Positions 9,256 to 14,196 of a DNA stretch of 29,225 nt are shown piece by piece (within the stretch, counting starts at the first letter, position 1; each line of letters begins with the position of its first letter). Source of the stretch: a virus. The notes beneath the pieces are model-generated. The model was not told the DNA's origin and searched no databases. It saw only the letters and a program-made list of their open reading frames with translations. A program made the translations under genes and the position numbers. Where the stretch lies: the IMG/VR virus record IMGVR_UViG_3300035388_000079, positions 1-29,225 of that record; one strand, 5' to 3'.

Positions 9256-9918
9256 ATGAAAGACAATAAGATTAGATTTTCTGGAAGTACAAGAGACTGG
9301 GTTATTGTGGCAGTAATTATTTTAGGGGCAGTATTAATGTATTGTAGTGTACAAATAAATTATAACGATCACACGATTGCTGCAGTGAATCTGGTGGTTG
9401 GATTTATATCGGCATCAACGGTCGCAATACTTGCATTTTCAACATATGACTTGAGTACGGAGATTCAAAAAAAAGAGAATAAGGTAAAAACGGTTAGAGC
9501 GAATGTTGGTTTGGAAATTTGGAAAGATCAATTTGATTGTATTAGGGAAATTATTGAAAAACTTGAAGCCGTTTACAATAAAACGGATAAAATTTCTGAG
9601 AATGAGCTTGATGAGTATATTGGTCGATTTGCAGATTTATTTATATCTCGAGCGGAATTTCAAAAAAATATTGAAGATTTAGTTATTGCTGAACAAGGTT
9701 CTAAAATTAGTAAAGTAAAAGAAATTTATGAAAAGTCAAATCAATTGAAAGGTGTTATTGATTCAAAATTAAAGAAAACTGGAAGCACTCCTTATATAGA
9801 CTTAACTAGAATTATTAAGAACACTTCAACTGATTCAAAGTATACTGACGATTTCTACGGAAAACAAAAAAAAGACATTAATGAGATTCTAGATATTTTT
9901 ATAGAAGTATGTGATTGA
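9256..9918 (+). CDS. AT-rich cargo gene: two-helix membrane protein with cytosolic body (I)
   Basis: A 220-residue protein of unknown function. Two hydrophobic helices at about residues 14-34 and 42-63 are joined by a short external loop; the remaining roughly 150 residues are charged, helical and should face the cytoplasm. Base composition is strikingly AT-rich compared with the flanking phage genes, a sign of recent transfer. It is followed by a terminator. The gene at 10123-10749 has the same architecture. Location between the late regulator and the packaging genes is a common place for morons; superinfection exclusion or anti-phage defence is a reasonable guess but not shown. Confidence 0.7.
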   Translation: MKDNKIRFSGSTRDWVIVAVIILGAVLMYCSVQINYNDHTIAAVNLVVGFISASTVAILAFSTYDLSTEIQKKENKVKTVRANVGLEIWKDQFDCIREIIEKLEAVYNKTDKISENELDEYIGRFADLFISRAEFQKNIEDLVIAEQGSKISKVKEIYEKSNQLKGVIDSKLKKTGSTPYIDLTRIIKNTSTDSKYTDDFYGKQKKDINEILDIFIEVCD

Positions 9919-10122: not shown

Positions 10123-10749
10123 ATGAAAATAAACAAGCAAGATGCTTTTATGGCAGGATTCGTTATATTATTTTACGCTCTAAGTGTTATTGGTCTTGCT
10201 TTGGTTGGGAAGCCAAATGGGAGTTCGATTTTATTTAATGCAATTGAAGTTAGTGCTACAATAATTCTTGGAATTATTGCAATCAGTATTAGTCTTAAGC
10301 AAACTATAATTTCTGAGGAAATGAAGGTATTAGCTGAAAAACAGACATTGATATCGGAGGATCTAAGGCTGATTAATATTCTAGAGGAAATAAGCAAGCA
10401 AATTGAAATTCTCGAGGAAGTCGATGAATATCTTCAAAAGCTCGCAATGGCATTTTCATTATATCCATTATTAACTGCGCAGAGACGAATTTATAATATG
10501 CCGCTTGAATTCCAACATGATCTTATGCTCAAGAGCAAAAGATTTATTGATATTGATAGAGATAGATTTAATGTGCTTAAGGAATCATTAATAAGGCAAC
10601 ATTTGAAATGGCTTAATGCAAAGGGGGAAGAAGGCGAAGATATGGACTTCTCGCGGGGCAAAAGGAATATTAAAGAGTTATTAGAGCCTATCAATTACAA
10701 ACTGGAAGAACTAAATTCTAGGAAAAAAACGATAGAAGATAGATGGTAA
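10123..10749 (+). CDS. AT-rich cargo gene: two-helix membrane protein with cytosolic body (II)
   Basis: A 208-residue protein with two hydrophobic helices (about 9-29 and 36-58), a short external loop, and a long helical cytosolic region with a probable coiled coil at 60-105 (EEMKVLAEKQTLISEDLRLI). AGGAGG precedes the ATG. It has its own promoter and lies behind a terminator, so it can be expressed in the lysogen. Architecture and AT-richness match the gene at 9256, although the two sequences do not look alike, so they may be distant paralogues or partners. No domain was recognised. Candidate role: membrane-sited exclusion of other phages; this is inference from topology and position. Confidence 0.7.
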   Translation: MKINKQDAFMAGFVILFYALSVIGLALVGKPNGSSILFNAIEVSATIILGIIAISISLKQTIISEEMKVLAEKQTLISEDLRLINILEEISKQIEILEEVDEYLQKLAMAFSLYPLLTAQRRIYNMPLEFQHDLMLKSKRFIDIDRDRFNVLKESLIRQHLKWLNAKGEEGEDMDFSRGKRNIKELLEPINYKLEELNSRKKTIEDRW

Positions 10750-10784
10750 GGTATGGAAATCTGATTAAAATACGGAGGTGCGTT

Positions 10785-11336
10785 TTGGCAGCAGCAAATC
10801 CAATCCGCGACAAGCGGGTACTGAAAGACATTACTGGATACTTGAAGATGCAGAGCGAACGGGATTATATTCTCTTTATGATGGGGATCTATTCCGGGCT
10901 TCGGATCAGTGACATCCTGAAGCTGAAGGTGTCGGATGTTAGGAACCAAGACTACTTCATGGTGACCGAGCAGAAGACGGGGAACATCCGAAAGATCATA
11001 ATCAATCCGGAGCTGAGGCGAGAGATTGCCTTATATGTGTTGGATAAGGATAATGAAGATTATCTGATTCGGTCCCGGGAGAACTACAACAACCCGATAA
11101 GCAGGCAACGCGCTTATCAAATCATCACAGAAGCTGGAGAAAAGTATGGTGTTCGATTGAGTACGCATAGTATGCGGAAAACATTCGGGTACCATTTTTA
11201 TTTGCAGTGCGGCGAGAGGAATGCATTGCCGGTCTTGATGAAGATCTACGGGCACAGGAGTGAATTGCAAACATTGGACTACATTGGAGTGGAACAGGAC
11301 TATATCGATACATCGTTGAGAAACTTTAGATATTGA
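10785..11336 (+). CDS. Catalytic-domain-only tyrosine recombinase
   Basis: A 183-residue tyrosine recombinase holding just the catalytic domain: R40 (YSGLRISD), K64 (TEQKTGN), H128xxR131 (THSMRKT), H157 (YGHRS) and nucleophile Y166 (TLDYIGV). All six residues expected of an active enzyme are present, but the N-terminal core-binding (SAM-like) and arm-binding domains of phage integrases are absent. TTG 10785 is the start, with GGAGGTG just upstream. Such short enzymes beside terminase genes are seen in other Firmicutes phages; they may resolve genome multimers or act on a local site rather than integrate the phage. It returns to the base composition of the phage backbone. Confidence 0.85.
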   Translation: MAAANPIRDKRVLKDITGYLKMQSERDYILFMMGIYSGLRISDILKLKVSDVRNQDYFMVTEQKTGNIRKIIINPELRREIALYVLDKDNEDYLIRSRENYNNPISRQRAYQIITEAGEKYGVRLSTHSMRKTFGYHFYLQCGERNALPVLMKIYGHRSELQTLDYIGVEQDYIDTSLRNFRY

Positions 11337-11366
11337 CCTGTTTTTATATTTTTTTCTGTTGAGTTA

Positions 11367-11520
11367 GTCGAAACGGGTAGCTTGTTAAACCGTGTTTTTT
11401 CGACAGGGGGAAAGCTACTGATATGACTGGGGTTGAATACTTTTTAATGAATTTAACAATTCCTTAGATACGAGAAACTCAAATAGGTGTTAGGAAAACA
11501 CATTCAACCCCAGTAACCAT
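11367..11520 (+). ncRNA. Candidate structured RNA (pseudoknot plus multi-branched stem)
   Basis: The 222-base gap before the HNH gene holds nested complementarities. GTCGAAA (11367-11373) pairs with TTTCGAC (11398-11404), extended by CGG (11374-11376) with CCG (11390-11392). The loop segment GTAGCTT (11377-11383) pairs with AAGCTAC (11412-11418), giving a pseudoknot. Next, ACTGGGGTTGAAT (11426-11438) pairs perfectly over 13 bp with 11502-11514, enclosing three small hairpins at 11449-11462, 11472-11480 and 11487-11501; ATG/CAT extend the base (11423-11425 with 11518-11520). This is too ordered for a plain spacer. It may be a regulatory or packaging RNA, or a DNA site for the adjacent recombinase or late activator. 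No promoter was found; no known RNA family was recognised. Confidence 0.5.
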
Positions 11521-11558
11521 GCGGTCTGTCCTATGATTGAAGAGGTGATTTTAGGAAA

Positions 11559-11927
11559 ATGACAAGAAGATCATTGAAACCATGTGCCAAGATCGGGTGT
11601 AAGAACCTCACTTCAGGCTATTATTGTGAGGAACACAAGGCAGAAAAGAAAAAGGTAAAACGACAAAAGGATAAACAAAGACCATCGGCAAGCCAGCGAG
11701 GATATGATCATCGTTGGCGCAAGGCTCGAAGGTCTTTTTTATTACGGAATCCACTATGTGCTCGGTGTGCAGCCATTGGAATCGTTCGACAGGCGACAGT
11801 TGTTGACCACATCATCCCTCATAAGGGAGATCCAGGCTTGTTCTGGGATGTGAGTAACTGGCAACCGCTCTGTGAGGAATGCCACAACGTCAAGACTGCA
11901 ACCGAGGATGGTGGTTTCGGTAGATAG
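11559..11927 (+). CDS. HNH endonuclease of the packaging module
   Basis: A 122-residue HNH nuclease. Two zinc cysteine pairs (C67xxC70 and C105xxC108) frame the active site: D83-H84 with H88 (VVDHIIPH), N100 (VSNWQPLCEECH) and H109. The N-terminus has extra C9, C14 and C23 that may form another zinc site. In known cos phages with this gene order (HNH, TerS, TerL) the HNH protein works with the terminase to cut the cos site. It follows the structured non-coding region and is followed by a cos-like intergenic stretch. Confidence 0.9.
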   Translation: MTRRSLKPCAKIGCKNLTSGYYCEEHKAEKKKVKRQKDKQRPSASQRGYDHRWRKARRSFLLRNPLCARCAAIGIVRQATVVDHIIPHKGDPGLFWDVSNWQPLCEECHNVKTATEDGGFGR

Positions 11928-12003
11928 GTAGGGGGGTCTGAATCTCTACAACGGTTCCGAAGGGGACCGTTGGGTGAGCCTTCAGAAACGTGCCCGCGAA
12001 TTA
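11928..12003 (+). other. Probable cos region between HNH and terS
   Basis: The gap contains a run of six G (11931-11936) followed by TCTGAATCTCTAC, a hairpin AACGGTTCC-GAAG-GGGACCGTT (11950-11971; nine pairs, one G-U as RNA), then GTGCCCGCGAATTA. From memory of related HNH-TerS phages, a G-run plus AATCTCTA plus hairpin recurs at this spot and is taken as the packaging cut site. The exact cut position and overhang cannot be read here. The ribosome-binding site of terS (AGGAGGGG) follows. Confidence 0.5.
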
Positions 12004-12020: not shown

Positions 12021-12515
12021 ATGGGACAACCTGGAAGAAAACCAAAACCAACAGCTTTAAAATCACTTCAGGGGAATCCCGGGAAGCGTCCCTTGAACAA
12101 TAATGAGCCGGAGTTTGAGAAATATGAGTTAGATGCGAAAGGAACGATCAAGCCACCAGTGTATTTGGATAGCTTGGCCAAGAAGGAATGGAAGCGGATT
12201 GCTCCGATTCTTCATAAAGTTGGATTGTTGACCAAGGCGGATGAAGCAGCACTGGCCGCGTACTGCGCAAACTTCTCTCGCTGGGTGCAGGCTGAGAAGT
12301 TGGTAAAAGAAGCCGGTCTAACATATGAGTCGGACAAAGGGAATGTTATTCAGAGGCCTGAAGTTGGGATTGCGAATACTGCGATGAAGTTGATGGTGAC
12401 TTTCTGCAAAGAGTTCGGATTGACTCCGAGTTCTCGAACATCTTTGTCAATGGAGCAGGCGGAGAAAATGGAAAGCCCCTTTGTTAGTTTCTTAAAGGGT
12501 GGTCAAGTTGGATAG
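12021..12515 (+). CDS. terS: Terminase small subunit, P27 family
   Basis: A 164-residue small terminase that recognises phage DNA and recruits the large subunit to start packaging. It begins with the P27-family signature GRKPKPTALKSLQGNPGKRP and continues with PPVYLDSLAKKEWKRIAPIL and KADEAALAAYC, ending in the TPSSRTSL region; length is normal for the family. AGGAGGGGTATAA precedes the ATG. It overlaps terL by 8 bases if terL starts at TTG 12508. Confidence 0.93.
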   Translation: MGQPGRKPKPTALKSLQGNPGKRPLNNNEPEFEKYELDAKGTIKPPVYLDSLAKKEWKRIAPILHKVGLLTKADEAALAAYCANFSRWVQAEKLVKEAGLTYESDKGNVIQRPEVGIANTAMKLMVTFCKEFGLTPSSRTSLSMEQAEKMESPFVSFLKGGQVG

Positions 12516-14196
12516 AACCAGCAAGTATGCCAGGGAAGTATTAGCCGGCAATATTCCGGCCAACAAGTTGGTGAAGTTGGCATGCATGCGACATATGAAT
12601 GATCTGAAGAAGTCGGTTCGAAAGAAGTATCCGTATAAGTTCGATAAGGAACTTGCGGATCGAGCGATTAACTTCTTCCCATTTCTAAAACATACTACAG
12701 GTGAGTGGGCTGGCCGGCCAATTGAGTTGGAACTCTGGCAGTGTTTTATTATTGGATCTGTATTTGGATGGGTTCGTAAGTCTGATAGAATCCGCAGGTT
12801 TCGGACGGCTTATGTCCAGGTACCCAGGAAAAATGGCAAGTCAACTTTGGCTGCCGGCATTGCACTCTATGGTTTGCTGGCAGACGGGGAGGCCCGGGCG
12901 GAGATCTATTCAGCTGCAACCAAGCGTGACCAGGCAAAGATTATCTTCGAGGAAGCCAAGCGGATGGTTTTGACTTCCGATGAACTCAAGAAGATTGTTG
13001 ATGTCTATAAGCTTAACCTTAGTGTTCCGGATACCTTCAGCAAATTTGAGCCATTGGCTTCAGAGGCAGACAGCCTCGATGGATTGAATGTGTACTTTGC
13101 TTTGATCGATGAGTTGCATGCACACAAGACGCGTGAACTTTGGGATGTCCTTGAAACTGCCACCGGTGCAAGACGCCAACCGTTGATGTTTCCGATCACT
13201 ACGGCCGGATTTAATCACAACGGCATTTGCTATGAGCAGTATGAATATTCAACCAAGATTCTGAACCATACCGCCGGCATGGAAGATGATCGGTACTTTG
13301 CATATATTGCGCAGATGGATCCGGAAGATGATTGGCGGGATCCGGAAACCTGGGCAAAGGCGAATCCGAACCTTGGGGTCTCAGTGAAACTGGAAGACCT
13401 GGAAGCAAAAGCGAAAAAAGCCAAGGAGATCCCCGCGGCGCAGAACAACTTCTTGTGCAAGCATTTGAATGTTTGGGTGAACAGTGAAGTGCGCTGGATG
13501 GATATGGAGAGGTGGCGCAAGTGCCCAACACTTACTGAAGAGGAAGTGAAGGCGCTTAAGCTAGAAGAACTTCCCTGTATTGTTGGGGTCGACCTTTCTG
13601 CTACAACGGATATTACAAGCATCAACTTTGAGTTCCCGCTCCCGGATGGTCGTGTATACGTTCACAGTCATTCCTTTATTCCGGAAGACAAGGTGGATGA
13701 GAAGATCAAACGAGACAAAGTGCCATATCGCCTATGGGAGAAGCAAGGGTATTTGACTTTCACTCCTGGGGGTGTAGTAGATTATGATTGGATCATTTCG
13801 TATATTATGACGAAGGCTAAGATTTGGGATATCAAAGAGATCTGCTATGATCCATGGAACGCTACTCAAATGGCCAACACCTTGACCAATGAGGGTTTTC
13901 TTTGTGTGGAGATTCGCCAAGGCTACAAAACACTTTCTGAACCGACCAAGGATGTGTACAAGTTGGTTCTTCGTGGGAAATACATTCACAACAATAACCC
14001 AGTGTTATCTTGGGCAATGAGCAATGCGGTTGCAGTTTCCGATCCAGCCGGCAATATCAAGCTGGACAAGTCGAAGGCGCAGTACCGGATTGACCCGGCG
14101 GTTGCGGCAGTGATCAGCCATGTTCGTGCGATTCTTCGACCATACGAGAATGAGTCCAGGAGCGTTTATTCAGAAAGAGGGATTGCATATTTATGA
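12508..14196 (+). CDS. terL: Terminase large subunit (ATPase-nuclease)
   Basis: A 562-residue packaging motor. The ATPase has Walker A PRKNGKST near residue 106-113 and Walker B ALIDELH near 198-204; the nuclease half contains GVDLSATTDITS (first acidic residue) and the later ICYDPWNATQ motif. It pumps DNA into the prohead and cuts it at the ends. TTG 12508 is preferred because AAAGGG lies 8 bases upstream, whereas the GTG at 12499 sits next to that site; the difference is three codons. It overlaps the following membrane-protein gene by four bases. Confidence 0.95.
   Translation: MDRTSKYAREVLAGNIPANKLVKLACMRHMNDLKKSVRKKYPYKFDKELADRAINFFPFLKHTTGEWAGRPIELELWQCFIIGSVFGWVRKSDRIRRFRTAYVQVPRKNGKSTLAAGIALYGLLADGEARAEIYSAATKRDQAKIIFEEAKRMVLTSDELKKIVDVYKLNLSVPDTFSKFEPLASEADSLDGLNVYFALIDELHAHKTRELWDVLETATGARRQPLMFPITTAGFNHNGICYEQYEYSTKILNHTAGMEDDRYFAYIAQMDPEDDWRDPETWAKANPNLGVSVKLEDLEAKAKKAKEIPAAQNNFLCKHLNVWVNSEVRWMDMERWRKCPTLTEEEVKALKLEELPCIVGVDLSATTDITSINFEFPLPDGRVYVHSHSFIPEDKVDEKIKRDKVPYRLWEKQGYLTFTPGGVVDYDWIISYIMTKAKIWDIKEICYDPWNATQMANTLTNEGFLCVEIRQGYKTLSEPTKDVYKLVLRGKYIHNNNPVLSWAMSNAVAVSDPAGNIKLDKSKAQYRIDPAVAAVISHVRAILRPYENESRSVYSERGIAYL

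Follow-up and report, generated by a model that had tools for sequence, protein, structure and literature searches.

The Recombinase Gene and the Gap Downstream of It

The window analysed here, a phage contig of 29,225 bases from IMG/VR whose left end is missing, encodes a small tyrosine recombinase of 197 aa formed by the catalytic domain only (10743–11336, + strand; PF00589, E 2e-17; phrog_216). A gap of 222 nt (11337–11558) runs from the recombinase stop to the start of an HNH endonuclease gene (11559–11927, + strand; PF01844, phrog_144), the first of the packaging genes, and is followed further on by the small (P27/Terminase_4) and large terminase subunits (12021–14196, + strand; PF05119, PF20441, PF03354). 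The recombinase possesses R54, K78, H142, R145, H171 and Y180, with catalytic residues 99–100% conserved in 91 homologues, and the best PDB folds for its AF2 model (pLDDT 85) are Xer/integrase catalytic domains (XerA and the HP1, P2 and lambda integrases). By its catalytic R-K-H-R-H/W-Y set, fold and family profile, the protein belongs to the tyrosine recombinase superfamily, and its scores with subfamily models are 65.8 bits for NF040815 (XerA/integron integrase; cut-off 220) and 36 and 34 bits for FimB and FimE (cut-offs 221 and 222). Judging from the gene content of related phages, this small recombinase is probably not the phage’s lysogeny integrase: most of the 27 records tested carry another integrase, either a tyrosine integrase of 340–440 aa or a large serine recombinase.

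The gap had been singled out in the initial annotation for its pairings, and every pairing listed was located by script in the sequence. They comprise a hairpin with the stem GTCGAAA/TTTCGAC (11367–11373 with 11398–11404) plus CGG/CCG, whose loop GTAGCTT (11377–11383) is complementary to AAGCTAC (11412–11418) in a proposed pseudoknot, a perfect 13-bp inverted repeat, ACTGGGGTTGAAT/ATTCAACCCCAGT (11426–11438 with 11502–11514), and three small hairpins (11449–11462, 11472–11480 and 11487–11501). We estimate that a perfect inverted repeat of 13 bp would occur by chance within 222 nt with a probability of ∼1e-3 or less.

That these pairings form together, as had been supposed, was not borne out. 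The whole gap folds modestly better than shuffled sequences (z –2.2 on the + strand and –2.7 on the – strand), and the proposed combination of hairpin and pseudoknot is missing from its minimum-energy fold. The window, L002, L003 and L005 are the only four relatives available; in their alignment, 71% of pair cells are kept in the hairpin and likewise in the pseudoknot, and 92% in the 13-bp stem, where no pair has changed on both sides. The covariation of the whole structure stays within the range of shuffles, 117 of 500 being as high. The statement that the element resembles no known RNA family stood: Rfam gave zero matches in the window at the gathering score, and the best permissive matches were at chance level.

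A Tripartite Element Conserved Downstream of the Recombinase

In many phages with distant homologues of the recombinase, the sequence downstream of that gene holds two imperfect dyads of ∼31 bp with dif-like half-sites, here called A and B. Site A, placed after the recombinase, occupies positions 11361–11393 in the window, as delimited by alignment to L002, L003 and L005 and by the A motif of the distant homologues; its consensus is AGTTmmCCATAAAAAG..GTGTGTAACTCA, and in the window its outer arm, GAGTTAGTCGAA, is degenerate while the inner arm, TTGTTAAAC, is conserved. Site B, a dif-like core placed before the packaging genes (11449–11481; GAATTTAACAATTCCTTAGATACGAGAAACTCA; consensus GAGTTACACACAATATAAGATATGGGTAACTCA), was located by PWM scans and by natural breakpoints in Bacillus phages, and is found in a single copy per phage; its centre and right arm resemble the dif site of B. 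subtilis. Between them lies motif C (11412–11435), a weak central dyad, AAGCTACTGATATGACTGGGGTTG, defined as a cross-validated motif at a fixed position, with the phage consensus AAAGCCTTGATGCATCAAGGCTTT and a held-out mean of 8.2 bits vs. 2.3 in shuffles; a general dyad test for the central dyad remained at background level, only the position-fixed sequence motif held, and no within-locus pairing of motif C was detected in phages.

The pairings noticed in the window map onto this plan. Site A corresponds to the hairpin, motif C holds the pseudoknot partner and overlaps the left arm of the 13-bp repeat, and each arm of site B is one of the small hairpins. That left arm (11426–11438, + strand) is present only in the window’s own clade, and the right arm (11502–11514, + strand) lies downstream of B, outside the conserved element, and is absent from distant homologues; between the arms there is one mismatch in L002 and more in L003. 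Alignment with L002 suggests that site A is evolving unusually fast in the window’s clade. Over 11361–11425, the worst block of 40 nt is ∼67% identical to L002, and the flanks are mostly ∼90% identical or more.

For cross-validation, the A and B motifs were trained on one part of the recombinase clusters and applied to the rest: 107 of 209 held-out loci, belonging to 40 of 73 clusters, pass at a threshold that 0 of 627 dinucleotide shuffles reach. Nearly half of the clusters are below this threshold; some of them have different arms, and others a site elsewhere or none found. The distance from the start of A to the start of B is 86 bp in the window and mostly 82–86 or 108–110 bp overall. The element lies on the recombinase strand in 140 of the 141 loci having it, and between the recombinase and the large terminase in 72 of the 73 in which the latter was located. 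In the Bacillus cereus group, the A–B unit is intact even where cargo genes part it from the recombinase.

If one enzyme occupied all four half-sites, the arms of A and B would be expected to match within each locus, as is in fact observed: over 35 clusters, the right arm of A matches the left arm of B at 4.26 of 6 positions vs. 3.30 in permutations (z 6.4), and the left arm of A matches the right arm of B at 4.29 vs. 3.52 (z 5.9). A and B therefore look like recognition sites of one protein. Their central spacers have no locus-specific homology, which makes simple inversion or deletion between A and B unlikely. No description of the A–C–B site was found in a literature search of open-access papers.

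The Plasmid Counterpart

Relatives of the recombinase family occur on 1,973 plasmid records. In the Bacillus badius plasmid pPM8 (8.2 kb), the recombinase gene is preceded by the order site1–C inverted repeat–site2, and the same arrangement is present in loci of Anoxybacillus, Halobacillus, Aneurinibacillus and Domibacillus. In these plasmid-type loci, the element is upstream of the recombinase and follows the same plan as in phages, with the centres of site1 and site2 108–110 bp apart and motif C being a perfect inverted repeat; in a model-free scan, a clear tripartite site was recovered in only some of the plasmid loci examined. In the tree, which has weak support at its deep forks, plasmid and phage enzymes are interleaved. 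By motif and arrangement, the same three-part site is found beside this enzyme in many Gram-positive phages and in some plasmids, and this counterpart, together with the interleaving of the enzymes, argues for a function in replicon maintenance, such as multimer resolution. The same analogy has been drawn for the XerC/D-like genes of phage-plasmids (PMC6669507).

Natural Breakpoints and Cargo at Site B

In Bacillus phages, the ends of Blast matches between loci pile up within 20 nt of the centre of B. In 21 pairs with at most 20 differences over the 250 positions left of B, homology is lacking in the right flanks; at the right edge of B, the mismatch rate of these pairs rises from ∼0.04 to ∼0.7. 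One pair of loci (L280 and L281) is 99.9% identical across 890 nt of the left flank and splits inside the B spacer, beyond which L281 continues with the right side of a third locus (L282); two further pairs, L269/L272 and L054/L057, show zero mismatches over the 250 nt to the left of B, and their right sides are unrelated. A sample chosen by the B sequence alone, ignoring the recombinase, comprised 107 distinct loci, in which 22 types of left flank and 43 types of right flank occur in reassorted combinations, and showed the same mismatch step; this sample partly overlaps the contigs of the first set and is not fully independent of it, and agreement inside the searched B is fixed by the pattern, so that only the step beyond B is informative. 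On the comparison of these loci, the Bacillus breakpoints, lying within B or at its edge, represent natural exchange of cargo, defence-like genes included. Homologous recombination between shared flanks could spread cassettes that already exist, but does not by itself explain why many unrelated cargoes start at the same edge of B.

The cargo of the Bacillus cereus group is mostly a single ORF of 0.3–1.8 kb, nearly absent in one case; its start usually lies within ∼90 nt of B, and its end often coincides with a shared boundary, GTGGCAGAGTCGTGA, which codes for VAES-stop. Among the cargoes of L260–L300 there are a TIR-type effector (L295), a PDC-S31 candidate defence protein (L287), a weak RiboL-PSP-HEPN match (L265) and a DUF3231 protein (L285). 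Past the cargo, on its right side, the phages of L260–L300 share a conserved and apparently non-coding block of ∼230 bp (from B+70 to B+300 in L275), which starts with GTGGCAGAGTCGTGACCGC, has no Rfam match in L275 or L276, and is entered by several cargo ORFs ending in VAES-stop. A second cargo slot, left of A and between it and the recombinase, is present in L036, L275 and L276, and in the last two it holds a nucleoside-hydrolase-like ORF.

In Clostridium phages the breakpoint signal at B is weak, and cluster 7, considered as a second case of exchange, was rejected, most of its differences proving to lie further downstream of B. No exchange was seen in the four contigs of the window’s clade, where the right flank is conserved.

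A Probable Recombination Site, With Proposed Roles in Multimer Resolution and Module Exchange

We consider it probable that the gap is the cis-acting A–C–B recombination site of the adjacent stand-alone tyrosine recombinase, serving multimer resolution and allowing exchange between B sites. Among the options that the initial annotation had offered, a recognition site for the recombinase is strongly supported by conservation, by the co-evolution of the arms, by the plasmid site and by the natural breakpoints in relatives, and structured RNA and packaging RNA had to be given up. These features, namely the element and its conservation, the matching arms, the conserved active site, the plasmid counterpart and the breakpoints at B in Bacillus relatives, are established at the level of sequence; by extension, the window phage itself would recombine as its relatives do.

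In this mechanism, recombinase monomers would sit on the two half-sites of A and the two of B. Site B (TTnnACACAAT-spacer-ATATGTnnAA, dif-like) would be the site of strand exchange, and A, with a factor bound at C, would form an accessory or architectural part controlling when B recombines. The B of one DNA molecule would then recombine with the B of another copy. Within a multimer this would lead to resolution, likely the basic role in view of the enzyme’s relatives and of the same three-part site on plasmids; between different co-resident phages, it would swap the sequence downstream of B. A point against this reading is that resolving multimers could hinder packaging from concatemers.

More tentatively, and with somewhat less than even confidence, we suggest that an undescribed one-enzyme system is common to Gram-positive phages and plasmids, and that in phages it acts as an integron-like port for module exchange at the early/late junction, through which accessory and defence genes are shuffled between co-resident phages with near single-nucleotide precision. 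Precise joints between phage gene modules are as a rule attributed to homologous or illegitimate recombination. In the present case, a conserved recombinase encoded by the phage, and apparently distinct from its lysogeny integrase, is accompanied by a complex site of its own where early and late genes meet. One cause of phage mosaicism and of the turnover of accessory genes thereby becomes directly testable, and a large plasmid/phage recombinase family gains a candidate cis site.

Comparison With Known Systems

In the TnpI-IRS systems of Tn4430 and Tn5401, which serve resolution, a tyrosine recombinase acts on a core and on accessory sites for the same enzyme. The element described here shares with them a core of two inverted arms, accessory sites within ∼115 bp and the adjoining recombinase gene; in terms of sequence, it has what TnpI-IRS and cer-type sites have, that is, a core of two inverted arms with a short spacer of 6–8 bp (B) and accessory sites at fixed spacing (A and C). 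Unlike the enzyme of the window, however, TnpI is larger and has a core-binding domain, and its accessory motifs are direct repeats, whereas in the present element a central motif lies between two dyads.

Xer/dif and the plasmid cer/psi sites (PMC5779722; PMC2958812, for context) are similar in their dif-like half-sites, single site per replicon, accessory sequences and likely multimer resolution, but differ in that the present system has its own stand-alone catalytic-domain enzyme, an accessory dyad of the same arm type and no XerC/XerD pair. The INT_C_like_3-type recombinases of Gram-positive plasmids (PMC7117683) probably fall, together with the present enzyme, into one broad group of short tyrosine recombinases of plasmids, and no description of a recombination site for them was found in the literature searched. 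The element would belong to a hitherto undescribed tyrosine-recombinase system, whose function is probably multimer resolution and which would also permit cassette exchange.

Alternative Explanations

The recombinase might instead have been selected for capturing and exchanging accessory genes at B, with the resolution of multimers as a by-product. Such a reading draws on the likeness to integrons, which also have single-ORF cargo at one recombinase site: in the Bacillus cereus group, B is mostly followed by one ORF, often with a shared right boundary, the right-flank types number 43, and some cargo has defence-like domains (TIR, PDC-S31). We regard it as rather unlikely. Inspection of the right boundary for B-type dyads revealed neither a second B site nor an attC-like one, and each phage has one cassette; furthermore, the integrase model scores far under its cut-off, the site is a double-stranded, dif-like one, cargo at B is missing from many other phages, among them that of the window, and plasmid relatives have the site without a matching cassette pattern.

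Considerably less probable is a regulatory nucleoprotein site, in which the recombinase and a C-binding protein would loop A–C–B to control late transcription, with catalysis vestigial. The location at the junction of early and late genes, the A–B spacing fixed near eight helical turns and the ArpU/RinA-like regulator encoded upstream are consistent with looping, but every active-site residue is 99–100% conserved, the 109-bp spacing class is off by ∼2.5 turns, cargo genes part the recombinase from the site in the Bacillus cereus group, and breakpoints occur at B.

An invertible switch of the FimB/FimE kind, with A and B as inverted repeats and the segment between them flipping, is very improbable. 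FimB and FimE are likewise ∼200 aa and catalytic domain only, their models show weak similarity to the recombinase, and the arms are compatible with an inverted orientation; however, the NCBIfam scores are far under the cut-offs, the spacers of A and B lack the locus-specific homology that strand exchange by this enzyme class normally needs, and the inverted-vs.-direct polarity is not significant, with no inverted variant noticed in the close relatives compared. A single-strand hairpin of the attC/CTX type, in which A would pair with B, gained no specific support, the matches being 4.96 of 7 inverted, 4.73 direct and 4.63 within-site.

Least credible of all is the structured phage RNA, regulatory or packaging, first proposed: the pairings exist and the gap folds modestly better than shuffles on the + strand, but Rfam, covariation and the pairing of motif C in phages were all negative, the hairpin and pseudoknot are not preserved in relatives, and distant homologues retain two dyads and a sequence motif in place of those stems.

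Other Features of the Locus and of Related Records

Between the HNH and small terminase genes (11945–11990), a GC-rich inverted repeat, CAACGGTTCC...GGACCGTTG, represents a candidate cos region. The phi105 record stops shortly past its HNH gene. In the 9.7-kb record of the Streptococcus satellite phage Javan591 (L163), the same recombinase family is found at the record end, and the phage has its own integrase of 436 aa. Just upstream of the recombinase in the window, 9256–9918 and 10123–10749 encode two similar-looking proteins of unknown family, each membrane-plus-coiled-coil in type, which are possibly exclusion or accessory genes.
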